Position numbers and translations under genes: made by a program. From Muribaculaceae bacterium (GTDB lineage Bacteria; Bacteroidota; Bacteroidia; Bacteroidales; Muribaculaceae): a DNA stretch of 39,882 nt. Of the stretch, positions 3,114-30,361 are shown piece after piece. The DNA is taken from the NCBI GenBank assembly GCA_017454355.1, contig JAFTDD010000061.1:1-39882 (forward strand), read 5' to 3'. How positions within the stretch are numbered: the first letter of the stretch is position 1; every line of letters begins with the position of its first letter. The notes under the pieces were generated by a model. The model had not been told where the DNA came from, did no database searches, and was given only the letters and a program-made list of their open reading frames with translations.

Positions 3114-3824
3114 TTATCGCAGGGTGGTGAAGAGGCCGGCGTAGGCCACGGTGAGGCCGAGGCAGGTGCCGCGGTAGGCCTGCGGCAGGCCGCCATGGAA
3201 ACGCAGTCCGGCCACCCAGGGTGAGATGCGCAGGCTGGACGTGTAGCGCGTTTTATCAACAAACTGGCCGTGCAACTTGATGTCAATATCGGCCTGGGCG
3301 CGCCATGACCAACTGCCGAGCGCCACATCTGTGGCGTTAATGACGGCAAACACGTCGCGTCCCGCCTCGTTCTTGCTCCACTCGATGTCGTTTACCGTCC
3401 ACGACAGGCGGCTGTAGTAAGCGCCGGCCAACGGCGTGACGACCACGCGGTCGCTCGCCTTGATGCGGTAGCCGGCCATAAGCGACACGGCGAAATTGCT
3501 CAAGTTGCGTGACTTGTTGAGTTGCAGGTCGCGGCCGTTCTCATCGAAGATGCCAAAGGGATTGTCGATGCGGATGGTTGGCTGCCCGTAGGTGAAGCCC
3601 ACCTTAAGGCGCAGGCCATCGTAACCGCCCTCGATGCCGGCACCAAAGTTGACGGTGGTCTTAATCAGGTCGGCGGCACCGCCAACGGGAGCCTGCAAGC
3701 CCACTCCGGCGTCAAAGCCGTAACTCCAGCCGCCGCAGTGGGCAGTGAACGCTGTTATCAAGGTACAAAGTACAAAGTACGAAGTACGAAGTGTGAGTCC
3801 ACTGCATAAAGTGAATAGTCTCAT
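3114..3824 (-). CDS. Predicted outer-membrane beta-barrel protein, unknown function
   Basis: About 236 residues from MRLFTLCSG. The N-terminus is a signal-peptide-like hydrophobic run ending near AFTAHC. The rest alternates polar and hydrophobic residues with many Gly and aromatic residues (GAGIEGGYDGLRLKVGFTYG, LRFHGGLPQAYRG), typical of a small outer-membrane barrel of the porin-family/OmpW-like size class. I do not recognise a specific family. Codons for about residues 12-21 of the signal peptide come from a GTACTTCGTACTT dispersed repeat (3757-3790). An alternative start at 3863 adds 13 residues (MNINGYLCKKTCG), which would be unusual before a signal peptide; the choice is not certain. 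Confidence 0.6.
   Translation of the reverse strand: MRLFTLCSGLTLRTSYFVLCTLITAFTAHCGGWSYGFDAGVGLQAPVGGAADLIKTTVNFGAGIEGGYDGLRLKVGFTYGQPTIRIDNPFGIFDENGRDLQLNKSRNLSNFAVSLMAGYRIKASDRVVVTPLAGAYYSRLSWTVNDIEWSKNEAGRDVFAVINATDVALGSWSWRAQADIDIKLHGQFVDKTRYTSSLRISPWVAGLRFHGGLPQAYRGTCLGLTVAYAGLFTTLR
3757..3791. repeat. GTACAAAGTACGAAGTAC repeat inside the barrel gene
   Basis: Tandem units of GTACAAA/GTACGAA run through this stretch. The same family in the other orientation forms 17297-17322, directly upstream of the HAD gene. Here it lies within the signal-peptide codons, an example of a repeat captured by a coding region. Confidence 0.6.
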
Positions 3825-3903
3825 ACCGCAAGTTTTTTTACATAAATATCCATTAATATTCATTAATCTTAGTCGCAGAGTTGTTGTTTTGAATAAATAT
3901 TAA

Positions 3904-3960
3904 TGGATAATTAATGGGTATTCGTGTTAAAATTAATCCGCGACTTTTTGCGGTAGACTC
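3904..3960 (-). repeat. 57-bp dispersed repeat, copy A, 3' of the first M6 protease
   Basis: Position-by-position comparison with 9139-9195 gives 48 identical bases of 57, without gaps. The most conserved part is CGCGACTTTTTGC followed by GTAGACTC. Both copies lie immediately beyond the stop codon of a minus-strand gene (17 bases and 1 base away), so the element would be in the 3' end of both transcripts. Confidence 0.75.
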
Positions 3961-3977
3961 AAGTGTTGAGTTTCGCA

Positions 3978-6236
3978 TTATTGATCGCTTGAGAGGATAG
4001 CGTCGAGGATGGTGTTCACGTCGCCAACGTCAACGCGGCCGTCGCCGTTCACGTCCAGTACCGCGTCCTTGTTGCCGGCGAGGATGGCGGCAAGGATGGC
4101 GTTCACGTCGCCCACGTCAACACGGCTGTCGCTGTTCACGTCCAGCGGGTCGCCCTCGTCATCGAGGCGCATCTCGCCGGTGTAGTACACCGTCAGGTCG
4201 TCGATAAAGGTGGCCGTGCGCATCGCCGTGGTGCCGCTGGTCATGTTCACGCGCAGCAGCACAGGCTCGCTGAAGTCGATGTTCCACGAGGCCGAGGTGC
4301 TCTCCTGTCCCGCAATGGTCACCGCGCCCTGGCTCACCCAGGTCACACCCTCGTCCACCGACGTGTATAGCACCAGTTTGGAGGCTGTGGCGGCGGTGTT
4401 GGTGGCGTGCAGCGACACGCGGTAGACGTAGTCGCAGTCGATTGGCTTGGCCATCTGCAACTGGCTGGGGCGAATCATTGCCACGGCATGGCTGCCGTTG
4501 CCCTGCTGTCCGTCCTCAATCTCGGTCACGGCGGCTTTGGTCAGGTTCCACGTTGCCCAGCGGCCCTTCACGCCGGTCACGCTCTGCTCGGTGGTCACGG
4601 GCATTGTCTCAAAGTCCTCCACCACGCTCTGCATCGAGTCGTCGCTAATGGCGTCAAACGTGATCACGCCGCCGCGTTCGGCGATATTTTGCAGCACAAT
4701 CGGGCTGGGCGACTGGTCCCACGTCAATAGGTTGGGAGTGGTGAAATTGTTGAGGCGCGTCACTCCCGACGTGCCCGGGAAGGCGTTGCCCGCGCCGATG
4801 TCTTCGCCGCCGTTGGCGTGCAGCAACTCATAGTAGTTGTGGCTGGCAGTGGCGTTGACCGTGTTGTCCTCCCACACGGCGTCCACGCTCTCGTCCACGC
4901 GCGCCACCAGCATGCCGTGGCCGGGCAGATAGGTGTCCCATCCGGTCTTCTGCCGGTTCTCAAAGAGGAAGTACTCCTTCTCGTTAGCCGTTGGCAGCAG
5001 GAAGCCCTCGCGGGTGCTCTGCAACTCGTTCAAAGTATAGGAACCCGCCTCGCTGAGCACCTGCGGCTCGGCAAAGCCCAGCGTGTACCGCTCCCAAATG
5101 GAGTAGCCCACCGGGGTGCGGCCCTCGTCGATGCCGCTACCGCCTGACATCACGTCCCACTCGCCCGGGTGAACGCTCTGGCCACCCTCGGCGTAGTTGG
5201 TGTCGTATAGGTCCGGCAAGCCCAGCACATGGCTGAACTCGTGGCACATCGTGCCGATGCCCAGAGGCACCGTGTGGCCGTAACTCTCCCAACCGTAAAT
5301 CTCGGTCGAGCAGGCGTAGCGCCAGAACGAGCAGCCGTCCAGGTCAAGCGTCTCGTAGCCGGTCTGCGTCCAGTTGATCAGGTAATAGGCGTGCGGCCAC
5401 AGGTAGCCCTGGTTGTTGCCGCCATAGTTGGCGCTGTAGCCGGCCGTGATGAAGTACACCATGTCGATGATGCCATCGCCGTTGGTGTCATACTGTGAGA
5501 AGTCCACCTCGTCGTCGAGCGCCTTCAGCGCGTCGGCAAAGATGTCAAACGTGTCGTCGGTGCCGTGAGGCTTGGTGCAGGGGTAGTCAACGTCCACCGG
5601 ACCGTAGATGTCAAACTGCGGCACAAAGGCGCCGTTGCTTTGGGCCTCAAAGTAGTCGCGCATCGAACCCACGCAGCGCTTGCGCTGGCCCGAGTGGGTG
5701 AAGCCGTTGTAGCCCTCGGTGTTGACCATCTCGTCGTAGAAGGCTTTGTCGCGCGTGAACTTCTTGTCGTTGTAGTTGATCAAGATGATCAGGCCGCGGA
5801 AGTTGCTGTAGTCAAAGTCGGCGCCGGGGATGCGGCGCGGTGCGCGCGCCGTCAGGCCCGTCGAGGGCAGCGCGCGGCTGTCGCGACGGGCGCGCATCTC
5901 ATGGGCGCGCGACACCATCGACTTGTCAATCAGCCGGTGGGGCAGCGCGGCAATGGTCGCCATTTCGCTCGCACGGCGCACGTCATGCGCCATTACGCCT
6001 GTCGACACCAGCCGCTCGCCATCGCGGCGCGCGTAGCAGTAGCCGTCCGCACCGGGCAGCAGGGTGTAGCCGTCGGTGGTGGTGTAGTAGTGATAGAACT
6101 CGTCGCCGTTGAGCACAACGGTCAGGCTGTCGCCGTCAGGCTGAGCCACACGCGACGGACGAGGGTCGGCGGGTATGGCGATTGCTGCTACGGCCGCGGT
6201 TGTGGCAACCAATGTTGCCAGCATTAATCTCTTCAT
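3978..6236 (-). CDS. Secreted M6-family metalloprotease with C-terminal dockerin (paralogue 1)
   Basis: 752 residues: signal peptide (about 1-20), propeptide-like N-terminal region, then a zinc-protease domain with HEFSHVLGLPD at about 332-342, matching the HExxHxxGxxD signature of the immune-inhibitor-A (M6) family. YDTNGDGIID near 249-258 looks like a calcium loop. A beta-sandwich-like region (about 545-690) follows the catalytic domain. The end (about 698-750) carries two dockerin calcium repeats, DVNSDSRVDVGDVN and DVNGDGRVDVGDVN, each followed by an ILxAIL-type helix. It is predicted to be exported and attached outside the cell. The gene follows its paralogue by 64 bases and is probably co-transcribed with it. 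A 57-bp repeat lies just 3' of the stop. Confidence 0.88.
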   Translation of the reverse strand: MKRLMLATLVATTAAVAAIAIPADPRPSRVAQPDGDSLTVVLNGDEFYHYYTTTDGYTLLPGADGYCYARRDGERLVSTGVMAHDVRRASEMATIAALPHRLIDKSMVSRAHEMRARRDSRALPSTGLTARAPRRIPGADFDYSNFRGLIILINYNDKKFTRDKAFYDEMVNTEGYNGFTHSGQRKRCVGSMRDYFEAQSNGAFVPQFDIYGPVDVDYPCTKPHGTDDTFDIFADALKALDDEVDFSQYDTNGDGIIDMVYFITAGYSANYGGNNQGYLWPHAYYLINWTQTGYETLDLDGCSFWRYACSTEIYGWESYGHTVPLGIGTMCHEFSHVLGLPDLYDTNYAEGGQSVHPGEWDVMSGGSGIDEGRTPVGYSIWERYTLGFAEPQVLSEAGSYTLNELQSTREGFLLPTANEKEYFLFENRQKTGWDTYLPGHGMLVARVDESVDAVWEDNTVNATASHNYYELLHANGGEDIGAGNAFPGTSGVTRLNNFTTPNLLTWDQSPSPIVLQNIAERGGVITFDAISDDSMQSVVEDFETMPVTTEQSVTGVKGRWATWNLTKAAVTEIEDGQQGNGSHAVAMIRPSQLQMAKPIDCDYVYRVSLHATNTAATASKLVLYTSVDEGVTWVSQGAVTIAGQESTSASWNIDFSEPVLLRVNMTSGTTAMRTATFIDDLTVYYTGEMRLDDEGDPLDVNSDSRVDVGDVNAILAAILAGNKDAVLDVNGDGRVDVGDVNTILDAILSSDQ

Positions 6237-6300
6237 TATTTTGGGTAGTTAGAAACTAGGATTTCTAGGATTTCTAGGATTTCTAGTGTTTCTAGGATTC
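6237..6300. repeat. Tandem TCTAGGATT repeat between the two M6 protease genes
   Basis: Five or so units of TAGGATTTC fill the 64-base gap. The upstream gene's TAG stop is itself part of a CTAGG unit. The same family (TCTAGGAAA, TAGGGATTC) recurs at about 11733-11780 at the 3' end of the cytidine deaminase gene. Confidence 0.7.
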
Positions 6301-8532
6301 CTAGGGTTGAGAATTGTTGTTTAGGATTATATCGAGGATGGTGTTCACGTCGCCAACGTCAACGCTGCCGTCATCGTTCACGTCATACTTGGTGTCGCTG
6401 TCGGCGGTGAGGATGGCGGCCAGCACGGCGTTCACGTCGCCCACGTCCACCACGCCATCGTTGTTGACGTCGCCCTTGAGCGAGGGCTCGGCTTCCTGCT
6501 TGCCGTTGTGATAGAGCCGCAGGTCGTCGATGTAGAGGCGCGACGTCTTCACCTTGCTGCCGGCCGTCATGTTGATGCGCAGGCGCACGGGCTTGTCGGT
6601 ATTCTCGTTGAGTTTCCACATCACCGTGCCGATGGCGCTGCCGGCAATGCTCACGGTGTGGTCGCTCGCCGGGTCCTTCCACGTCTTGCCGCCATCGTAA
6701 CTCACGTAGAGGCGCAACTTGGCCGCCGCGGCGCTGCTGTTGAACACGTTGGCGCGCACCATCGTCAGCCGGTAGTCGAGGTCGGTCTCCATCTGAATCA
6801 TGCTGGGCGTGTACATGCCCATGGATTGCGCGCCGTTGCACGTCACACCCTCCTCGCCGGCCATCACGTTGGCCTTGTTCAGCGTCCATGTGGCCCATCG
6901 GCCCTGCACGCCCTTGAGCGGCGTGGCCGCGTTGACCGGCATCTCCTCAAAGTCCTCGACGAGCACCTGCTGGTCAGCGGCCTTGATGACGCGGAACGTC
7001 ACCGCGCCGCCGGTCGTCTCGTCGATGTCGGTGATGACAAACGGGCTCTCGACACCGGCCCATGAGCACAGGTTCGCCACTCCGCTATTGTCAAGCATCA
7101 GCACACCGTCGGTGCCAGGGAAGGGGTCGCTGGTTTTGTCGCCCTCGGTGCTGCCGCCGGCGCGCAGCAACTCGTAGTAGTTGTGGTTGGGGTCGCAGTT
7201 GAGCGTGTTGTTGTTCCACACCGCCACGTTGGTGCTGTCAACCCTCACCACCACCATGCCGTGGCCGGGCAGCGCCGCGTCCCAGCGAGTGGCCTGCCGG
7301 TTCTCAATCAGGAAGAACTCGCGGCTGTCCTCGGCCGTGGGCAACTTGTAGCCGCTGTTGCCCGTCTGTAACGGCTCGATGGAGTACTCGCCGGCCTCGG
7401 TGATTACCTGCGGCGCGGCCCACTCAAACGTGTATCGCTCAAAGAGCGAATAGCCGGCCGGGGTGCGAGAGTAGTTGTTATAGCCGCCACTGGCCATAAT
7501 GTCCCATTTGCCCGGGTCATGGCTCTGGCCGCCGGTCTCGTAGTTGGTGTCGTAGAGGTCGGGGAAACCCAGCACGTGGGTGAACTCGTGGCAAATGGTG
7601 CCGATGCCGTCGGGCACTCCGCTGCCCTCCTGACCCATCAGCGCCGTCGAGCAGGCATACAGGTTGAAGCGCTTGCCGTCAAAGCGGTTGTTGGTCAGCC
7701 AGCCGCTCTTGTAGGGCCACAGCAGGCGGCTGTCGTTATTCTGAGTGTTGGAGCCGTAGCCGGCCACGATAAAATAGACCATGTCCACATAGCCGTCGCC
7801 GTCGGTGTCATACTGCGAATAGTCGATCTCGTTGTCGAGCAGGCGGATAGCCGTCTGGAAAATCGAGCGCGAACTGGCGTTGCCCTGTGTGGAGGCGTAG
7901 TTGGTCACGTCTACCGGGCCGTAGATGTCAAACTGTGGGTCGAAGTTGCCCATCGAGTTCTCGCGGTAGTAGTCACACACGCTGCCGGTGAACCGCCCAT
8001 ATACGTTCGACTGGTCGTAGCCGGTGTAGCCACGCTTGTTCACCATGTCCTCATAGATATCGGCGTGTTCAATCTTGATGTCGCTATAGTTGATGAGGAT
8101 AATCAAGCCGCGGAACTTGTCGTAGTCAAACTGCTTGATGCGGTTCAGGCCGCCCTGCTCGTCACGGGCACGGCGTGCGCGTGTGCCCTCGGTCGAGGCA
8201 ACGCGGTCGGTGACGTGCTTGCCGGTGATAGCCAGCAGCGACATCTCCGACGGAGTGCGCCGCGCCGCATCATGGGCTAGCACACCCGTCGACGACAGGC
8301 GCCCCGCGCCATCAAGGCGCGCGTACTCATAGGCACCGGTCGCGCTGTTGCGCAGCACGGTGTAGCCGTCGCTCGTGCAGTTGTAGTGGTAAAACTCGTC
8401 GCCCACCAGCCGCAGGGTCACGCTCGTGCCGTCGGGCTGCTGACACACTCCGGGCATCGGGTTGGCCGGTATCGCGTTGGCAACGGCAACGCTCGCCGCG
8501 GCCACCATCAATCCAATCAGTCTTTTCATCAT
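6301..8532 (-). CDS. Secreted M6-family metalloprotease with C-terminal dockerin (paralogue 2)
   Basis: 743 residues with the same plan as the next gene: signal peptide (about 1-20), the N-terminal GDEFYHY...DGYTVL pattern shared by both, a zinc site HEFTHVLGFPD at about 315-325, a calcium-type loop YDTDGDGYVD near 241-250, a beta-rich region, and a final double dockerin (DVNNDGVVDVGDVN, DVNDDGSVDVGDVN). Identity is obvious through the whole catalytic region (for example CHEF, PDLYDTNY, PGHGM), so the pair arose by tandem duplication. The start may be either of two adjacent ATGs (8532 or 8529). Differences in the region before the zinc site suggest diverged specificity; the substrates are unknown. 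Confidence 0.88.
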   Translation of the reverse strand: MMKRLIGLMVAAASVAVANAIPANPMPGVCQQPDGTSVTLRLVGDEFYHYNCTSDGYTVLRNSATGAYEYARLDGAGRLSSTGVLAHDAARRTPSEMSLLAITGKHVTDRVASTEGTRARRARDEQGGLNRIKQFDYDKFRGLIILINYSDIKIEHADIYEDMVNKRGYTGYDQSNVYGRFTGSVCDYYRENSMGNFDPQFDIYGPVDVTNYASTQGNASSRSIFQTAIRLLDNEIDYSQYDTDGDGYVDMVYFIVAGYGSNTQNNDSRLLWPYKSGWLTNNRFDGKRFNLYACSTALMGQEGSGVPDGIGTICHEFTHVLGFPDLYDTNYETGGQSHDPGKWDIMASGGYNNYSRTPAGYSLFERYTFEWAAPQVITEAGEYSIEPLQTGNSGYKLPTAEDSREFFLIENRQATRWDAALPGHGMVVVRVDSTNVAVWNNNTLNCDPNHNYYELLRAGGSTEGDKTSDPFPGTDGVLMLDNSGVANLCSWAGVESPFVITDIDETTGGAVTFRVIKAADQQVLVEDFEEMPVNAATPLKGVQGRWATWTLNKANVMAGEEGVTCNGAQSMGMYTPSMIQMETDLDYRLTMVRANVFNSSAAAAKLRLYVSYDGGKTWKDPASDHTVSIAGSAIGTVMWKLNENTDKPVRLRINMTAGSKVKTSRLYIDDLRLYHNGKQEAEPSLKGDVNNDGVVDVGDVNAVLAAILTADSDTKYDVNDDGSVDVGDVNTILDIILNNNSQP

Positions 8533-8737: not shown

Positions 8738-8768
8738 TTTGCGGTTTCCGATTTTTGACGTAATTTTG
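8738..8768 (+). promoter_or_regulatory. Bacteroidales-type promoter for tRNA-Asp
   Basis: TTTG at 8738-8741 is followed after 19 bases by TAATTTTG at 8761-8768, an exact match to the Bacteroides -33/-7 consensus TTTG-N19-TAnnTTTG. The predicted start of transcription is a few bases before the mature tRNA end at 8788. Confidence 0.8.
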
Positions 8769-9196: not shown

Positions 9197-11590
9197 TCAA
9201 CGCGACTGCATCTTGTAGAACGAGCGATAGACGAAGTAGAGCGCGATGGCCACAAAGGCGATGCCCACCCACGGCGCCACCTCACGGAAGTTCTCGCTGA
9301 TGGCAATCTCCATAGCCAACACGCCAAATAGGGTGGTGAACTTGATAATCGGGTTCAGAGCCACGCTCGACGTGTCCTTGAACGGGTCGCCAACCGTGTC
9401 GCCCACGACGCTGGCGTCGTGCAACTCGGTGCCCTTGGCCTTGAGGTCAACCTCAACAACCTTCTTGGCATTGTCCCACGCGCCACCGGCGTCAGCCATA
9501 AACACAGCCTGGAACAGACCGAACACGGCAATCGAAATCAGGTAACTCACAAAGAGGCACACCGCCGCGTTGCCGCCGATGCTCGCCGGCGACGACAGGC
9601 ACGCGAAGCCCAGCGCGAAGCAGAAGATGGCGATGAAGATGTTAATCATACCCTTCTGGGCATACTCGGTGCAGATGCGCACCACCTCCATGCTCTTGGC
9701 GGCGTCGGCCTTCTTGGGCGCGTTCAGGTCAAGGTTGATGTTGTCCTTGATAAACTCCACGGCGCGGTTGGCGCCGGTGGTGACGGCCTGCATCGACGAG
9801 CCGGTGAACCAGTAGATCACACAGCCGCCCAGGATAAAGCCCAGGATAGAGTAGGGGTTGAGCAGGTTGAGCACGCTCTCGGGCTGGATGCCCAGCGTGG
9901 ACTGGATGAGCAGGATGAGCGAGAAAATCATCGTGGTGGCGCCGGCCACAGCGGTGCCGATGAGCACCGGCTTGGCGGTAGCCTTAAAGGTGTTGCCCGC
10001 ACCGTCGTTGGCCTCGAGGTAATACTTCGCCTTCTCAAAGTCGGGCTTGAAGCCGAACTCTGCCTCAATCTCCTTGGAGGCCTTGTCGACATCGTCCTCG
10101 ATGAGCGACAACTCATAGACGCTCTGGGCGTTATCGGTCACCGGTCCGTAACTGTCCACAGCGATGGTCACCGGACCCATGCCCAGCATACCGAAGGCCA
10201 CCAGACCAAAGGCGAAGATGGCGGGGTAGTTGCCCAGCAGGGCACCCATATCATAGTAGGAACTGGCCATATAAGCCAGCAGCATCAGCGCGAAGAACAC
10301 AAAGCCGGTCCAAAACGAGCCGAAGTTACCGCTAACGAGGCCCGAGAGGATATTCAGCGAGGCGCCGCCCTGTTGCGACGTCTTGACCACTTCGCCCACG
10401 TGGGCGCTGGTGGGCGACGTGTAGAGTTTGGTGAACTCGGGGATGAGCGCGGCGCCCAGGGTGCCGCACGAGATAATGGTCGCCAAACCAATCCACCAGT
10501 TCTCGTCCGGCAGGTCCTTGAGCAGGAAGTAACTCGCGGCATAGGTGGCGACAATCGAGAGGATGCTGGTGATCCACACCAACGAGGTGAGCGGCTTCTC
10601 GAAGTCGAGGTCGTCGGCGCTGCTGTAGCGCGCCTTGCTGATAGCGCCGTTGATATAATAGGCCACCACGCTTGCCACCACGCCCAGGATGCGCATCACA
10701 AAGATCCACACCAGCAGGTCCACCTGGAACTGCTGCGGCACGGCGAGCAGGATGAACGACACCAGCGCCACGCCGGTCACACCGTAGGTCTCAAAACCGT
10801 CGGCGGTCGGGCCGATGCTGTCGCCGGCGTTGTCGCCGGTGCAGTCGGCAATTACACCCGGGTTGCGAGGGTCGTCCTCACCAATCTTGAACACAACCTT
10901 CATCAGGTCGCTGCCGATGTCGGCAATCTTGGTGAAGATGCCGCCGGCGATGCGCAGCGCGCTGGCACCCAGGCTCTCACCGATGGCAAAGCCGATAAAG
11001 CAACTGCCGGCCAAATCGCCCGGCATAAACATCAAGATGACAAGCATCAGCACCAACTCCACACAAATCAGCACAATGCCGATGCTCATGCCGGCCGTGA
11101 GCGGAATGTTGAGCAGGTCCAACGGGCGACGGCGCAGCGAGGCAAACGCCATGCGAGAGTTGGCATAGGTGTTCATGCGCACTCCAAACCATGCCACGCC
11201 GTAGGAGCCGAGCACGCCGATGACGGTCCAACCCAAAATCAGCGCTACCTTCCAGGCCTCCATTCCCTCGAGCAACCCGAAGTAGAGCACCACCGCGGCA
11301 CCGATAAAGAGGAAGAGCACGCCCAAGAACTTGCCCTGTTGCTTGAGATAGGTGGCGCACGTCTTGAAAATAACGTCACCTATCTCCAGCATGGACTTGT
11401 GGGCCTTGAGGCGACTCACTCGGTTAAACTGCCAAAAGCCGAACAGCAGGCCAAGCACGACCACGGCAAATCCCCAATAGAGCACTGTCGCCTTGTCGGC
11501 GAAGTCGGCGGGCATCTTCAGGTCGGCCTCGCTTGCCATCATTGCCAGCGGCGCGCAGCCTGCCAGCATTGTCATAATTAGTTTTCTCAT
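9197..11590 (-). CDS. hppA: Membrane-bound ion-translocating pyrophosphatase
   Basis: 797 residues with many membrane helices. The enzyme hydrolyses pyrophosphate and pumps H+ and/or Na+ across the inner membrane. The catalytic stretch includes GEDDPRNPGVIADCTGDNAGD (about 238-258) followed by a GPTADGFETYG variant, rather than the more familiar [18 protein letters not shown] wording. The second signature reads GAGNTFKATAKP. In this family Lys at that position, where K+-dependent members have Ala, is associated with K+ independence; the ion cannot be settled by reading alone. The frame continues to 11686, but a clear promoter at 11657-11687 lies within that extension, so MRKLIMTM at 11590 is the start. 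The length is at the long end for the family. Confidence 0.93.
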   Translation of the reverse strand: MRKLIMTMLAGCAPLAMMASEADLKMPADFADKATVLYWGFAVVVLGLLFGFWQFNRVSRLKAHKSMLEIGDVIFKTCATYLKQQGKFLGVLFLFIGAAVVLYFGLLEGMEAWKVALILGWTVIGVLGSYGVAWFGVRMNTYANSRMAFASLRRRPLDLLNIPLTAGMSIGIVLICVELVLMLVILMFMPGDLAGSCFIGFAIGESLGASALRIAGGIFTKIADIGSDLMKVVFKIGEDDPRNPGVIADCTGDNAGDSIGPTADGFETYGVTGVALVSFILLAVPQQFQVDLLVWIFVMRILGVVASVVAYYINGAISKARYSSADDLDFEKPLTSLVWITSILSIVATYAASYFLLKDLPDENWWIGLATIISCGTLGAALIPEFTKLYTSPTSAHVGEVVKTSQQGGASLNILSGLVSGNFGSFWTGFVFFALMLLAYMASSYYDMGALLGNYPAIFAFGLVAFGMLGMGPVTIAVDSYGPVTDNAQSVYELSLIEDDVDKASKEIEAEFGFKPDFEKAKYYLEANDGAGNTFKATAKPVLIGTAVAGATTMIFSLILLIQSTLGIQPESVLNLLNPYSILGFILGGCVIYWFTGSSMQAVTTGANRAVEFIKDNINLDLNAPKKADAAKSMEVVRICTEYAQKGMINIFIAIFCFALGFACLSSPASIGGNAAVCLFVSYLISIAVFGLFQAVFMADAGGAWDNAKKVVEVDLKAKGTELHDASVVGDTVGDPFKDTSSVALNPIIKFTTLFGVLAMEIAISENFREVAPWVGIAFVAIALYFVYRSFYKMQSR

Positions 11591-11656: not shown

Positions 11657-11687
11657 CAAAGGTAGGCATTTTAGCCCAAATAACAAA
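11657..11687 (-). promoter_or_regulatory. Promoter of the pyrophosphatase gene
   Basis: Read on the minus strand, TTTG (11684-11687) is followed after 19 bases by TACCTTTG (11657-11664), a perfect Bacteroidales promoter. The start codon lies about 67 bases downstream, at 11590. Confidence 0.82.
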
Positions 11688-12289: not shown

Positions 12290-12321
12290 CAAAGGTAAAA
12301 AAAATATCGTTACCCTCCAAA
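12290..12321 (-). promoter_or_regulatory. Promoter of cdd
   Basis: On the minus strand TTTG (12318-12321), a 20-base spacer and TACCTTTG (12290-12297) match the Bacteroidales consensus. Transcription would begin around 12283, ahead of the ATG at 12248. Confidence 0.8.
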
Positions 12322-12381: not shown

Positions 12382-12412
12382 TTTGCCATGTGCCGTATTT
12401 TTTGTAAATTTG
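12382..12412 (+). promoter_or_regulatory. Promoter of the acyltransferase / tubulin-like operon
   Basis: TTTG at 12382-12385 and TAAATTTG at 12405-12412 are separated by 19 bases, a perfect consensus. It is the only strong promoter I see before the three co-directional genes at 12439-15759. Confidence 0.82.
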
Positions 12413-12438
12413 CAACCTTATAGCAAAATAATGTTCAG

Positions 12439-13602
12439 ATGAGTGTTGAAATTCGACAGATAACCCCCACCAAGAGTGCGCTGACGCGCTTTGTGGAATA
12501 TCCCATCGACTACCTATACGCCGACAACGACCACTATGTGCCGGCACTGGTCATCGACGAGGTGGATACCCTGCGGCCCGACCGCAACCCGGCGTTTGAC
12601 TTCTGCGACAGCATCTACTTTATGGCCTACCGCGACGGGCAGCCCGTGGGGCGCATCGCCGGCATCGAGAACAAGGCCGTGAACGAGCGCACCGGCAAGC
12701 GCGAGGTGCGCTTCGGCTTTGTGGACTTTATCGACGACGATGAGGTGGTCGATGCCCTGTTCGGCGCCGTCGAGCAGTGGGCACGCGGACGCGGCCTCGA
12801 CACGATGGTGGGGCCGATGGGCTTCACCGACATGGACCGCGAGGGAATGCTCGTCGAGGGATTTGACTACGACGCGACGCAGGCCGAAATCTACAACCAC
12901 GCCTACTACCCGCGACACATGGAGCGGATGGGCTTTGAGAAAGACGCCGACTGGCTGGGTATGCTCATCTACGTCCCCGACGAAATTCCACCCAAGATGG
13001 TGCGCGTGGCCGACATCGTCAGGCGCCGCTACAACGTGGACAATGTCCACTTCACCAGCCGCAAGAAACTCGTCAAGCAATATGGCGACGCCATCTTCTC
13101 GCTCATTAACGAGGCCTACGACAGCCTGTTTGGCTATTCGCCGCTCACCAAACGCCAGATAGACCACTACATCGACATGTATCTGCCTTTCCTGCCGTTG
13201 GACGACATCTCGCTCATCGTCAGGCGCGACGAGGGGCATGACGGTGAACTGGTGGGAGTGGGTATCGCCATACCGTCGCTCAGCCGTGCCCTCATCAAGA
13301 GCCGCGGACGCCTGTTGCCTTTCGGGTGGTGGCACCTGCTGCGGGCGTTCAAGGGCGAGAACCCCGTGGTGGATCTGATGCTGGTGGCCATCAAACCGGA
13401 GTATCAGAGCAAGGGGGTGAACGCGCTGCTGTTCACCGACCTCATCCCCAGTTTCCAACGCCACGGTTATAAGGTGGCCGAGAGTAACCCCGAACTGGAG
13501 GCCAACAGCAAGGTGCTCACCCAGTGGGACTACTTCGAGACCAAGCCCACCAAGCGCCGCCGGGCCTACATCAAGCGTCTTGATGGCCAGAGCAAAGAGT
13601 AA
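12439..13602 (+). CDS. YghO/BcerS-like GNAT-fold acyltransferase, function unknown
   Basis: 387 residues without signal peptide or membrane segment. The pattern (FVEYPIDYLYADNDHYVP at the N-terminus, DRNPAFDF, GRIAGIENK, GFVDF near the first third, then VGPMGFTDMDREGMLVEGFD and a C-terminal half with LMLVAIKPEYQSKGVNALLF) matches the conserved GNAT-like family that includes E. coli YghO. The QSKGVNALLF phrase resembles the acetyl-CoA pyrophosphate loop. The substrate is not known for this family. The gene has its own strong promoter and leads a co-directional group: a four-helix membrane protein starts 67 bases after it and a tubulin-like gene follows. The family call rests on remembered sequence patterns. 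Confidence 0.72.
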   Translation: MSVEIRQITPTKSALTRFVEYPIDYLYADNDHYVPALVIDEVDTLRPDRNPAFDFCDSIYFMAYRDGQPVGRIAGIENKAVNERTGKREVRFGFVDFIDDDEVVDALFGAVEQWARGRGLDTMVGPMGFTDMDREGMLVEGFDYDATQAEIYNHAYYPRHMERMGFEKDADWLGMLIYVPDEIPPKMVRVADIVRRRYNVDNVHFTSRKKLVKQYGDAIFSLINEAYDSLFGYSPLTKRQIDHYIDMYLPFLPLDDISLIVRRDEGHDGELVGVGIAIPSLSRALIKSRGRLLPFGWWHLLRAFKGENPVVDLMLVAIKPEYQSKGVNALLFTDLIPSFQRHGYKVAESNPELEANSKVLTQWDYFETKPTKRRRAYIKRLDGQSKE

Positions 13603-13627
13603 AGAAGTTATATTAAAGGAGCCAGGT

Positions 13628-13650
13628 GCAAAACGGCCTCGACGTTTTGC
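13628..13650 (+). repeat. Short hairpin between the acyltransferase and membrane protein genes
   Basis: GCAAAACG (13628-13635) pairs with CGTTTTGC (13643-13650) around seven bases. No T-run follows, so it is unlikely to end the transcript; it may mark an mRNA stability or processing point. Confidence 0.5.
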
Positions 13651-13669
13651 CTCTCCAAACCTCAACTAA

Positions 13670-14125
13670 ATGAAACGATATATTTTTTTGACATTGGGCA
13701 TCGCGTTGAGCGTACTGTTTGTTGTGGCGGCTTATCTGGAGAGCGGCGGCCTCTACGAGGCGCTCTACTACCAGCGCGACTTCAGTCAGGAGATGTACGA
13801 ACTGGGGGTGTATCCCACTTTGGCGTTGCTCACCGTGGCCATCACCTGGGGCATCGCCGCCCTTTACTACTACGTCATCAACTCGGTGTACTTCGACCGG
13901 TGGTGGCACTGGGGGCTCATGCTCGTGGTGGCCGCCATAGCAACACCGGCGGCGTGCTACGCCGTGAGCGACGCGGCACTGGCGAGCGCCGGCGTCGACT
14001 ACGCCGTGCAACTCGGCCAATTTGAGATGCAACACGTCATCTGGGCCGCGCTGCTATTCATCGTCGCCTCCCTCTCGATGCGCTGGTGGAGCACCAACTG
14101 CCGCCACACCCCTTTCCCGCAATAA
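13670..14125 (+). CDS. Four-helix integral membrane protein, unknown family
   Basis: 151 residues with four evident hydrophobic segments (about 3-22, 48-70, 81-99, 119-138). Aromatic and charged residues in the first loop (YEALYYQRDFSQEMYE) suggest a periplasmic or cytosolic loop with a defined surface. I do not recognise the family. It lies between the YghO-like gene and the tubulin-like gene, with gaps of 67 and 101 bases and no intervening promoter or terminator, so a functional link with the tubulin-like protein, for example as its membrane anchor, is a reasonable inference. The start is the first ATG after a short leader; KRYIFLTLG gives a normal positive-inside N-terminus. Confidence 0.7.
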   Translation: MKRYIFLTLGIALSVLFVVAAYLESGGLYEALYYQRDFSQEMYELGVYPTLALLTVAITWGIAALYYYVINSVYFDRWWHWGLMLVVAAIATPAACYAVSDAALASAGVDYAVQLGQFEMQHVIWAALLFIVASLSMRWWSTNCRHTPFPQ

Positions 14126-14129
14126 ATAG

Positions 14130-14208
14130 AGCAAAAGGCGGTTATGCCGCTTGAACTGCTTCAATAACTAATAAATGAGTGCCGTGCAAGGCGGCCATGC
14201 CGCCTTGC
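14130..14208 (+). repeat. GGCGG-ATGCCGCC palindromes before the tubulin-like gene
   Basis: GCAAGGCGGC at 14186-14195 pairs perfectly with GCCGCCTTGC at 14199-14208 around CAT. A weaker relative, AAGGCGGTTATGCCGCTT, lies at about 14134-14152. Both resemble REP elements. The strong stem sits 18 bases before the start codon of the downstream gene, where it could limit translation. Confidence 0.65.
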
Positions 14209-14226
14209 CAACGACTAACGACTGAT

Positions 14227-15759
14227 ATGAGACTGTTTCTCTTTGCAATAGGCGGCACGGGGGCGCGCACCCTCAAGTCGCTCACGATGCTCGCCATGGC
14301 GGGCGTCAGACCTGTGTGCGACGACTGCACGCCGCTCAACGACTTTGAACTCGTGCCGGTGATTATTGACCCGCACCGCGCCGGCGAGGACATCAAGCGC
14401 ACCGAGGCCCTGCTTGCCGACTACCGCCAGACGCGTGAGGCCCTCTATGGCGACCGGCGCGACGCCGAGGGCTTCTTCGCAATGCGCATCAGCAGCCTGC
14501 GCGACATCGCCGGCACCGGCGTCGCCTCGCGCCTGCCGGCGGGCTACGCCATGAACCTCAGCGCCGTCGAGAACCGCCAGTTCAGCGACTTTATCGGCTA
14601 CGACACGATGAGCGAGCCAAATCAGGCCCTCACCGACCTGCTCTTCGCCCCCTATCAGAAGGCAAACAAGATGAACATCGGCTTCGTCGGCTCGCCCAAC
14701 ATCGGCGCTGTGGCCCTCAACGAAATTAAGGACACACCCGAGTTCAAGGCCTTTGCCGGTGTGTTCCGCCCGGGCGACCGCATCTTCTTTGTCAGTTCTA
14801 TCTTTGGAGGCACCGGCGCGGCCGGCTTCCCCATCATGGTGAAGAACATTCGGCAGGCGGCCTCGCTCGACGGCACCGACAATCGCGACGCCCTCGCCCG
14901 CGCGCCAATCGGCGGCCTCACCGTGCTGCCATACTTCACCCTTGAGCAAAGCAAGCAGGACGACCGCATCGCCACGGCCGACTTTGTGGTCAAGACCCAA
15001 AGTGCCCTCCACTACTATAACACGGCCCTCACGGGCGAGCGCGACAGTCAAGTGAACGCCATTTTCTATTTGGGCGACCAGGTGCGCTCGCTGCCTTACC
15101 GCTACGACCCGGGCGAGCATGGTCAACGCAATAACGCCCACCTCATCGAACTCGTGGGCGCGCTGGCCGTGTTGAAGTTCGCCGCTCTGCCCAATGACCG
15201 CCTGATGGATGCCGACGGCGAGCCATTGCCGCGCACCGCCGCCTTTGAGTATGCCCTCGAGCAGGATGCCAACATCATCCACTTCGCCCAACTGGTGGCT
15301 CCCACGCGGCGCTTGCTCTATAAGCCGCTCACGGCTCTTTACCACCTGCGCCTCTTCCTCCACGATGGCTTCGAGAGCCTTATCGGACAAGGCTTCACCC
15401 TAGACAAACCGCGCCTGACGGGCGACCTGATTGCCTCGCAGTTCTACCGCACCGTCAAGGGGCCGCTGCTCGACAGTTACGCCGAGTGGCTGGCCGAGAT
15501 GGACGACAACTCACGCAGCGTGCAACTATTTGCGCGCGACGTGCCGGAGGGTGATATGACCCACGCTGTGCGCGGCGTTGAGCCAAAGCGTGGCTTGCTG
15601 CGACCCAAGAGCGTCACCATCGCCACCTACAAGGCCGCTATGAACGCGCTCACCGTCAACCCTGACGCCTACGCCGCCGCCACCCCGGAACAAAAACTGA
15701 TGGACCTCTTCTACCGCGCCGCAATGCGCGTGATTGACTCCAACCTCGAGGCCACCTGA
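14227..15759 (+). CDS. Tubulin/FtsZ-superfamily-like GTPase (Tubulin_2/FtsZl type)
   Basis: 510 residues. The N-terminus FLFAIGGTGARTLKSL (about 4-18) looks like a Rossmann-type T1 loop. SSIFGGTGAAGFPIMV (about 190-205) matches the tubulin signature GGTGxxG for the GTP phosphates. The two loops are about 185 residues apart, longer than in FtsZ, as in the Tubulin_2/FtsZ-like families described for diverse bacteria in membrane-remodelling contexts. No membrane segment or signal is seen. The rest (IGGLTVLPYFTL, YLGDQVRSLPYRYDPG) has no motif I can name. Upstream codons from 14179 overlap a palindrome, so MRLFLFAIGG at 14227 is the start. It is not the cell-division FtsZ. Filament formation and membrane action are inferences. 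Confidence 0.68.
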   Translation: MRLFLFAIGGTGARTLKSLTMLAMAGVRPVCDDCTPLNDFELVPVIIDPHRAGEDIKRTEALLADYRQTREALYGDRRDAEGFFAMRISSLRDIAGTGVASRLPAGYAMNLSAVENRQFSDFIGYDTMSEPNQALTDLLFAPYQKANKMNIGFVGSPNIGAVALNEIKDTPEFKAFAGVFRPGDRIFFVSSIFGGTGAAGFPIMVKNIRQAASLDGTDNRDALARAPIGGLTVLPYFTLEQSKQDDRIATADFVVKTQSALHYYNTALTGERDSQVNAIFYLGDQVRSLPYRYDPGEHGQRNNAHLIELVGALAVLKFAALPNDRLMDADGEPLPRTAAFEYALEQDANIIHFAQLVAPTRRLLYKPLTALYHLRLFLHDGFESLIGQGFTLDKPRLTGDLIASQFYRTVKGPLLDSYAEWLAEMDDNSRSVQLFARDVPEGDMTHAVRGVEPKRGLLRPKSVTIATYKAAMNALTVNPDAYAAATPEQKLMDLFYRAAMRVIDSNLEAT

Positions 15760-15780
15760 TTTCCACAACCATTGATATGC

Positions 15781-15847
15781 TCACGAAAATTCACGAAAAT
15801 TCACGAAAATAATTATATCTCCCGTGAACTTCCGTGAATTTTCGTGA
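15781..15847. repeat. TTCACGAAAA palindrome downstream of the tubulin-like gene
   Basis: Three tandem TTCACGAAAA units (15781-15805) pair with CGTGAACTTCCGTGAATTTTCGTGA (spread over 15823-15847) at about 23 of 25 positions. It lies between two convergent genes and could act as a bidirectional terminator. A small perfect hairpin, CAAGACTTCGTCTTG, follows at about 15872-15886. Confidence 0.7.
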
Positions 15848-15915
15848 ATAAATAATCTTGATGATGAGTACAAGACTTCGTCTTGCAATACACAACCATT
15901 TTTTGTGAAATAAAA

Positions 15916-15953
15916 AATTCACGAAAATTCACGAAAATTCACGGGAGAATAAT
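15916..15953. repeat. TTCACGAAAA/TTCACGGGAGA repeat overlapping the aroA stop
   Basis: Three units of the GTGAATT-type family run from AT-rich spacer into the coding end of aroA, contributing its stop codon. Together with 15781-15847 it fills most of the 179-base gap between convergent genes. Confidence 0.65.
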
Positions 15954-20003: not shown

Positions 20004-20035
20004 TTTGATTATTTGGGATTAATGTATTACTTTTG
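20004..20035 (+). promoter_or_regulatory. Promoter of argR
   Basis: TTTG at 20004-20007, a 20-base spacer and TACTTTTG at 20028-20035 match the Bacteroidales consensus. The start codon is 42 bases downstream. A further isolated TATTTTTG at 19946-19953 has no matching -33 box. I could not identify a convincing ARG-box palindrome. Confidence 0.78.
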
Positions 20036-30329: not shown

Positions 30330-30361
30330 TTTGCGGGGACACGATTTTTTTTGTATTTTTG
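30330..30361 (+). promoter_or_regulatory. Promoter of the small membrane protein / metG unit
   Basis: TTTG at 30330-30333, 20 bases, then TATTTTTG at 30354-30361 match the Bacteroidales consensus. It rules out the longer reading-frame start at 30351 for the following gene. Confidence 0.78.

Follow-up and report, generated by a model that had tools for sequence, protein, structure and literature searches.

The window considered here is the whole stretch of 39,882 nucleotides that was analysed, contig JAFTDD010000061.1 of a Muribaculaceae bacterium, and the genes in question lie together on its forward strand (Table 1): one for a GNAT acyltransferase, one for a small membrane protein (TM) and one for a tubulin-superfamily protein (TUB), with gaps of 67 and 101 bp between them. 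A preliminary description of this DNA presented them as three co-directional genes behind a perfect promoter, and both the common strand and the exact match to the promoter consensus hold. TM and TUB belong to a larger conserved set, which runs LIPO, TM, TUB, BIG and often SEC, with ZorA/ZorB-like genes in some lineages, and the partner that is found in nearly every genome, BIG, lies outside the window. LIPO, usually the first gene of the set, encodes a lipoprotein of about 480 residues; BIG encodes a protein of about 1,140 residues, the C-terminal half of which is a predicted Hsp70/MreB-type ATPase domain; and SEC encodes a further membrane-anchored protein that is often found downstream of BIG, where a protein with a sub-threshold zinc-ribbon match is often present as well. 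Our overall reading, to which we give a probability of roughly 0.6, is that of a membrane-tethered GTPase/ATPase pair under a periplasmic sensor of the von Willebrand factor A (vWA) type, serving a stress or defence response at the inner membrane.

Table 1. Features of the window around the TM and TUB genes.
Feature	Position	Strand	Basis or remark
Promoter, Bacteroidota-type	12382..12412	+	TTTG-N19-TAAATTTG, exact match to the consensus; ahead of the GNAT gene
GNAT acyltransferase, 387 residues	12439..13602	+	Pfam PF00583, 22.8 bits (cut-off 20.7)
TM, small membrane protein, 151 residues, core member	13670..14125	+	Position upstream of TUB, hydropathy
TUB, tubulin-superfamily protein, 510 residues, core member	14227..15759	+	AlphaFold2 and Foldseek; start taken as ATG 14227, the mechanical open reading frame opening at GTG 14179
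T1-type glycine loop GGTGAR of TUB, residues 9-14	14251..14268	+	
T4-type glycine loop FGGTGAAG of TUB, residues 193-200	14803..14826	+	
Break point	15760..15938		BIG starts here in most relatives; here reverse-strand aroA, with BIG on contig C97

The evidence for the set comes from the gene neighbourhoods of TUB. TUB is present in 90 of the 91 genomes of the window's genus, the single miss being a genome that is 74% complete (G020). Among 71 named close loci, which are of the genus type and come mostly from Muribaculaceae-type metagenome bins, some of them named Candidatus Sodaliphilus, TM lies upstream of TUB in all 69 that have at least 1 kb of flank, as would be expected of the small membrane partner that the preliminary description had proposed. 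LIPO lies upstream in 64 of the 65 loci whose flank reaches 2.5 kb or more, and in 64 of 69 the start of BIG is found no more than 1 kb beyond the end of TUB. In the other five, BIG is further off (L031 and L075), the contig ends (L076 and L081) or there is none in 6 kb (L093). The description of TM as a four-helix protein is plausible and not shown: four hydrophobic segments were seen in a relative, but only three rise above the hydropathy threshold in the window protein.

The pairing of TUB with BIG extends well beyond the genus. The TUB profile matches 82 of the 297 genomes of the family, 40 of them in the window's genus, while the BIG profile reaches 207 of the 297 at E values of up to 1e-3; the additional BIG matches listed are short and weak, and mostly open frames of about 340 to 360 residues like the two that were checked and found to be MreB. 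Strong BIG matches occur at 103 places in 83 genomes, namely all 82 that have TUB and G288, in which a BIG fragment stands at a contig start. At 84 of the 90 places where TUB is found in the family genomes, BIG follows on the same strand within 1 kb, with a median gap of 42 bp. The six exceptions are the window genome, its sister, G051 (2.7 kb away), G005 and G332 (BIG on another contig) and contig C184 of G227 (no BIG on that contig). In 45 further, mostly distant loci, BIG comes after TUB in 41 of the 43 with enough flank, the exceptions being L150 and L151. TM and LIPO were detected less often in the distant loci (18 of 43 and 28 of 40, respectively), perhaps because their profiles were built on close relatives.

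TUB itself appears, on the evidence of its predicted structure and of intermediate homologues, to be a diverged member of the tubulin superfamily that stands near Tubulin_2 (PF13809) and not inside it. The preliminary description had suggested a structure prediction for this protein, and an AlphaFold2 model built from 27 aligned sequences (predicted local distance difference test, pLDDT, 78.9; predicted template modelling score, pTM, 0.85) was matched by Foldseek to the FtsZ/tubulin fold. There were 1,209 matches against the PDB at E values of up to 10, the best at 8e-4, and the 50 that were listed are all entries of FtsZ, TubZ, CetZ, tubulin, microtubules or gamma-tubulin complexes, counting matches in large complexes by entry with individual chains unchecked; FtsZ is among them with a probability of up to 1.00. 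The two glycine loops noted earlier as resembling T1 and T4 are there, and their key residues (G9, G10, G12, R14 and F193 to G197) are invariant in 28 aligned TUB sequences, the most distant of which is 18% identical to the window protein. Against Pfam, the window protein gives sub-threshold scores for Tubulin_2 (12.4 bits, cut-off 27) and Tubulin (12.1 bits, cut-off 33), and homologues with the same gene order exceed the Tubulin_2 cut-off (30.8 bits in L139 and 28.4 bits in G431). Thus, the predicted fold and the score in L139 agree with the earlier assignment of the gene to a diverged protein related to the FtsZ-like and Tubulin_2 families. The reading of TUB as the cell-division FtsZ was rejected, as a protein above the TIGR00065 cut-off for FtsZ is encoded on contig C84 of the same genome. 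Second, sub-threshold FtsZ matches, each with an internal TGA, were seen in two relatives (G003:C69:8289-9299 and G002:C208:12514-13467), and these are possibly decaying FtsZ copies.

For BIG, the protein of the sister species was modelled with AlphaFold2 from 31 sequences (pLDDT 73.7, pTM 0.63). Its 18 Foldseek matches with E values of up to 1e-3 (best 4e-7) are all Hsp70-family ATPase domains or MreB, and the next ones are immunoglobulin-fold chains (Fab and similar, E above 2e-3), which may correspond to its middle beta-rich region. By strict pattern, 61 of 62 close homologues carry a DFGTTN motif, 57 a DIGGGTxD motif and all 62 an SGTGSK motif, which we take to be the phosphate-1, phosphate-2 and adenosine motifs. 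In 25 diverse BIG sequences, the residues D589, G591, N594, E770, D792, G794, G795, D799, G951 and G953 are invariant. No BIG protein rises above a Pfam cut-off, and sub-threshold matches to FtsA, MreB or Ppx-GppA were found in some relatives and not in the BIG of the window genome. The BIG profile also matches two proteins (2e-7 and 3e-10) that are MreB according to Pfam (396 and 400 bits), with mreC beside one of them. Two other proteins matched by the profile (L228, 5e-10; L231, 5e-9) were considered as Hsp70-like and set aside, since no Pfam family matched them. At L135:10511-13001 and L136:12393-15001, BIG is followed by another BIG-like protein, in which both ATP motifs are present and which extends in each case past the stretch read; both genomes belong to the window's genus and carry an extra TUB set.

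LIPO has a lipobox-like start in 60 of 65 close loci and a [DE]xSGSM motif resembling the metal ion-dependent adhesion site (MIDAS) of vWA domains in all 65. Pfam gives nothing above a cut-off for LIPO or SEC.

Several known systems resemble this set in part. In the division (dcw) gene cluster, FtsA and FtsZ, an actin-fold and a tubulin-fold protein that are linked to the membrane, are encoded by adjacent genes, and the present set likewise joins neighbouring genes for two such proteins. In contrast to that pair, the order here is TUB and then BIG, BIG is some 1,140 residues long with large extra regions and matches Hsp70/MreB, and TUB lacks a convincing T7 motif and coexists with a separate FtsZ. 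The FtsZl1 systems of Makarova and Koonin (2010; PMC2875224), which include vWA proteins, a GTPase and OmpA proteins, are similar, in the parts of that paper covered here, in that a diverged tubulin-superfamily protein (Tubulin_2, PF13809) is encoded with vWA, membrane and sometimes OmpA-type proteins; membrane remodelling is put forward there for such tubulin-like systems as a proposal. TUB differs from FtsZl1 in being short (about 460 to 590 residues; 510 in the window) and in lacking the long coiled-coil C-terminal extension, and in the present set an Hsp70/actin-like gene nearly always adjoins it, whereas the words "Hsp70" and "MotB" are absent from the main text of PMC2875224. The TUB profile does not match five long PF13809 proteins from the same order (L236 to L239 and L242; 797 to 1058 residues), and these show no BIG in the stretch read, which for L242 is a contig of just 6.3 kb. 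Thus, TUB, compact and with an Hsp70-like partner, seems to form a separate family. A divergent and patchy Tubulin_2 group is also what PMC9871819 describes, as far as the portion of it used here goes.

Kaur et al. (2020; PMC7159879) describe GTPase-centric conflict systems that come close as well: the sections of that paper drawn on here report Hsp70 and, close to the membrane, proteins with tubulin or vWA domains. According to the same sections, the GAP1-N2 systems show a tubulin theme and an HSP70/GrpE theme that do not overlap, and these systems are centred on TRAFAC GTPases and found mainly in firmicutes and actinobacteria, whereas in Bacteroidota the present set has its tubulin gene directly beside the Hsp70-like one. 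Scans of the conserved members revealed no GTPase family, other neighbours not having been scanned systematically, and for no member type does the Walker A pattern occur in more than 4 of 108 proteins. Among the titles and abstract openings listed from the open-licence literature, which includes no bioRxiv and few subscription papers, none dealt with a tubulin/Hsp70-like neighbour pair in Bacteroidota. The present set is thus akin to both the FtsZl1/vWA and the GTPase-centric tubulin systems, and distinct from either.

Outside the family, the set is patchy and also occurs on plasmids. The TUB profile matches 10 of 296 genomes in a sample of the phylum, the window's own included; of the nine others, seven were inspected, and BIG follows TUB in all seven, the two weakest matches (E 2e-10 and 3e-12, in frames of more than 1,600 residues) having been left out of the neighbour check. 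Among 72,556 plasmid records, six carry TUB, namely one of Prevotella sp. oral taxon 299, with the order LIPO-TM-TUB-BIG-SEC, and five cyanobacterial plasmids. In each of the three cyanobacterial plasmids inspected, BIG lies directly downstream of TUB (4e-42 to 1e-52), and a D[GA]SGSM motif is present in a protein encoded nearby, in one case on the opposite strand. Picosynechococcus sp. PCC 7003 is an example of a laboratory cyanobacterium with the plasmid form. The annotation of these three regions calls BIG and the vWA-like gene "hypothetical" or "unknown", as it does TUB in two of them, while the third names TUB a "tubulin-like doman-containing protein". There is no sign of phage origin, as none of 50,697 phage records matched. 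A relaxase is encoded near one locus of the set, and near two very different TUB sets there are proteins whose first 45 residues are identical (L145:3847-5049, a phage-type integrase by Pfam, and L166:10645-11847), which points to carriage by integrative elements. Proteins with a TerD domain come after BIG in the most distant branch (L163:575-1249 and L226:2856-3422, both on the reverse strand; Pfam 146 and 230 bits), which hints at a link to the Ter stress systems; similar-looking proteins were noticed in L166, L167 and L227.

How might these parts work together? We are confident of the identities assigned to them, and it is probable that TUB and BIG act together at the membrane. LIPO would sense a ligand or damage in the periplasm, and TM and SEC would relay the signal across the inner membrane. 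On the cytoplasmic face, BIG, cycling between conformations with ATP, would control the assembly or disassembly of GTP-bound TUB, and might load, tether or strip it, by analogy with the tethering of FtsZ by FtsA or the action of Hsp70 on a client. The assembled complex could then seal, remodel or de-energise the membrane against a stress or an invader, and where ZorA/ZorB-like genes occur, the proton-motive force might provide a second energy input or an effector. A purpose in stress or defence is suggested by the patchy distribution, the plasmids, the integrase and relaxase neighbours and the ZorA/ZorB-like genes found elsewhere, and we hold this part of the reading only tentatively. A more specific version, which we offer as a possibility and place below even odds, is a machine of two nucleoside triphosphatases, a tubulin-family GTPase and a giant Hsp70/actin-family ATPase, that are obligate partners, positioned at the inner membrane by a vWA sensor in the periplasm and coupled, in the fullest form, to a MotA/MotB-type proton channel. 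If so, tubulin, the actin fold and proton-motive energy would be joined in one operon, in at least two phyla and on chromosomes as well as plasmids. Among nucleotide-driven machines, filaments and chaperones alike, the proteins of the tubulin fold and those of the actin/Hsp70 fold make up the two great families, and their near-constant pairing here, in a gene set that is widespread in bacteria and little studied, makes a mutual action of TUB and BIG at the membrane directly testable.

Several observations weigh against this reading. Sequence searches of the PDB with TUB or BIG, as single sequences or as profiles, gave nothing significant, and an hhalign comparison of a wide TUB alignment with 12 FtsZ sequences was not significant either (E 0.21), while placing the T4 loops in register; the tubulin assignment therefore rests on the predicted structure, the loops and the intermediates. 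The Foldseek evidence has its own weak points, as only one TUB match falls below an E value of 1e-3 and the template modelling scores of the relevant TUB and BIG matches are low, from 0.19 to 0.46. Furthermore, no acid is conserved after the presumed helix H7 of TUB, which was not superposed on FtsZ, so that hydrolysis of the FtsZ type at the T7 loop is doubtful. The vWA assignment of LIPO rests on the MIDAS-like motif, because Pfam finds a vWA domain in just 1 of the 14 LIPO proteins scanned, and weakly (TerF-type vWA, E 0.009). As to the pairing, the BIG profile was built partly from neighbours of TUB and 25 of the loci are not independent, so that the pairing count is partly circular, and three loci (L093, L150 and L151) show no BIG within the stretch read. 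ZorA/ZorB-like genes were found in none of the 71 genus-type loci, in which at most about 6 kb downstream was covered. A class that joins GTPases, tubulin homologues and HSP70 is already named in the part of Kaur et al. (2020; PMC7159879) used here. Finally, the near-universal presence of the set in the genus fits a housekeeping role better than defence.

This last point leads to the strongest alternative, in which the set would be a housekeeping machine of the envelope or cytoskeleton, a further pair of the FtsZ/FtsA kind, used to position or build structures of the envelope or to partition material, with no part in defence. Besides the 90 of 91 genomes of the genus, the strong constraint on the proteins (ratios of non-synonymous to synonymous substitution rates, dN/dS, of 0.04 to 0.13) speaks for it, as do the normal FtsZ that is also present in the genome and the fact that tubulin/actin gene pairs such as ftsA-ftsZ are classical for division. 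Against it stand the patchy occurrence beyond the genus (82 of 297 family genomes, the 40 of the genus among them, and 10 of 296 in the phylum), the carriage by cyanobacterial plasmids, and the location near a phage-type integrase in two loci (one by Pfam, the other by its identical start) and near a relaxase in one. We consider a purely structural role rather unlikely, and lean toward a role in envelope stress or defence.

The ZorA/ZorB-like genes raise another alternative, an anti-phage system related to Zorya in which TUB and BIG would take the place of the usual effectors. The resemblance lies in the MotA/MotB-like pair found in a subset of the loci. PADLOC models match downstream of BIG in L142, L144, L145, L147, L160 and L164 (best E 9e-8 to 2e-5 for ZorA and 5e-14 to 1e-5 for ZorB), and our own profiles add ZorA and ZorB in L153, L159, L223, L224 and L240 and ZorA alone in L152. 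In total, a ZorA-like gene is found in 12 loci, and a ZorB-like gene in 11 of these. Nevertheless, of 17 distant loci for which 7.5 kb or more was available downstream, only 5 have both genes, and near the set in the window's genus neither was found (0 of 71 loci). Nor did PADLOC match the three proteins encoded in the window or the LIPO, BIG and SEC of L034. The ZorB search of the window's genome yielded OmpA-end matches on other contigs and nothing more, in keeping with an unspecific family search that matched 9 of 9 genomes, mostly through the OmpA-like end. ZorC, ZorD and ZorE, for which no systematic search was made, did not appear among the proteins scanned. A Zorya-related system is thus improbable.

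As for the acyltransferase, which the preliminary description had counted as a member of the system, its gene adjoins TUB in 2 of 12 genomes, those of the window and its sister, and in the other ten it lies on another contig or hundreds of kb away. Among the 71 named loci, it stands beside TUB in one, that of the sister genome (L031). The three genes are therefore not conserved as an operon: TM stays with TUB, while GNAT is rarely adjacent, which for this gene is the outcome that the preliminary description had named as refuting. A three-gene system, in which the acyltransferase would modify lipid or protein next to a membrane anchor and a tubulin GTPase, could draw on the shared strand, the short gaps, the single promoter and the arrangement common to the sister species, but the distant orthologues in 10 of 12 genomes, and the lack of any TM or TUB match in the gene lists of four regions that hold GNAT elsewhere, make it very improbable. 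We judge GNAT to be a separate gene and a chance neighbour outside the conserved system. The preliminary description had called the acyltransferase YghO-like, and such acyltransferases are linked to ceramide synthase; the window protein gives a general GNAT match just above the Pfam cut-off.

Genome rearrangement can lend an unrelated gene the look of an operon partner, and the window genome may provide such a case. There, in a draft of 102 contigs, the set is spread over three of them, with LIPO on C23 (4153-5418, reverse) and BIG (3797-7228) and a shortened SEC (7366-7956) on C97. In the sister genome (G016), LIPO is likewise away from the set, TM comes after GNAT, and TUB and BIG are separated by an AAA-ATPase/PD-(D/E)XK gene, while in G063 LIPO, TM and TUB are still together. 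We infer a recent break-up of the set, with GNAT as a neighbour that arose as its by-product; that BIG has gone from its place after TUB is seen in a single draft assembly. The intervening gene of the sister (L131:9473-11044, AAA-ATPase_like/PDDEXK_9 by Pfam) has a start that resembles, by eye, that of a gene at the end of C97 (L129:9167-9880), and repeated genes of this kind may have mediated the break-up.

Between the window's species and its sister, dN/dS is 0.042 for TUB, 0.070 for TM and for BIG, 0.105 for SEC, 0.131 for LIPO and 0.055 for GNAT, and there are no internal stops in the set members or GNAT. Given these low ratios and the lack of stops, the split parts still look functional and under purifying selection. 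The dS values vary sixfold, from 0.18 (BIG) to 1.16 (LIPO), with the cause unexplained, and the members of the set may have different histories, perhaps through recombination.

With regard to the promoter, the Bacteroidota consensus is TTTG-N19..21-TAnnTTTG, and exact matches number six across the window, against a mean of 0.13 over 100 shuffles, while a sigma-70 scan of 12382-12412 reaches at best 9 of 12 matching positions. This promoter may also serve TM and TUB by read-through. The other exact matches lie at 8738-8768, 11657-11687, 12290-12321, 20004-20035 and 30330-30361, and that at 12290-12321, on the reverse strand, points toward a divergent cytidine deaminase-like gene. NCBIfam and PADLOC scans of the three window proteins gave nothing useful. 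Upstream, at 9419-11581 on the forward strand, a 720-residue open frame is antisense to a large reverse-strand gene, which, judged by eye, probably encodes a membrane pyrophosphatase, and the open frame is probably an artefact of composition.

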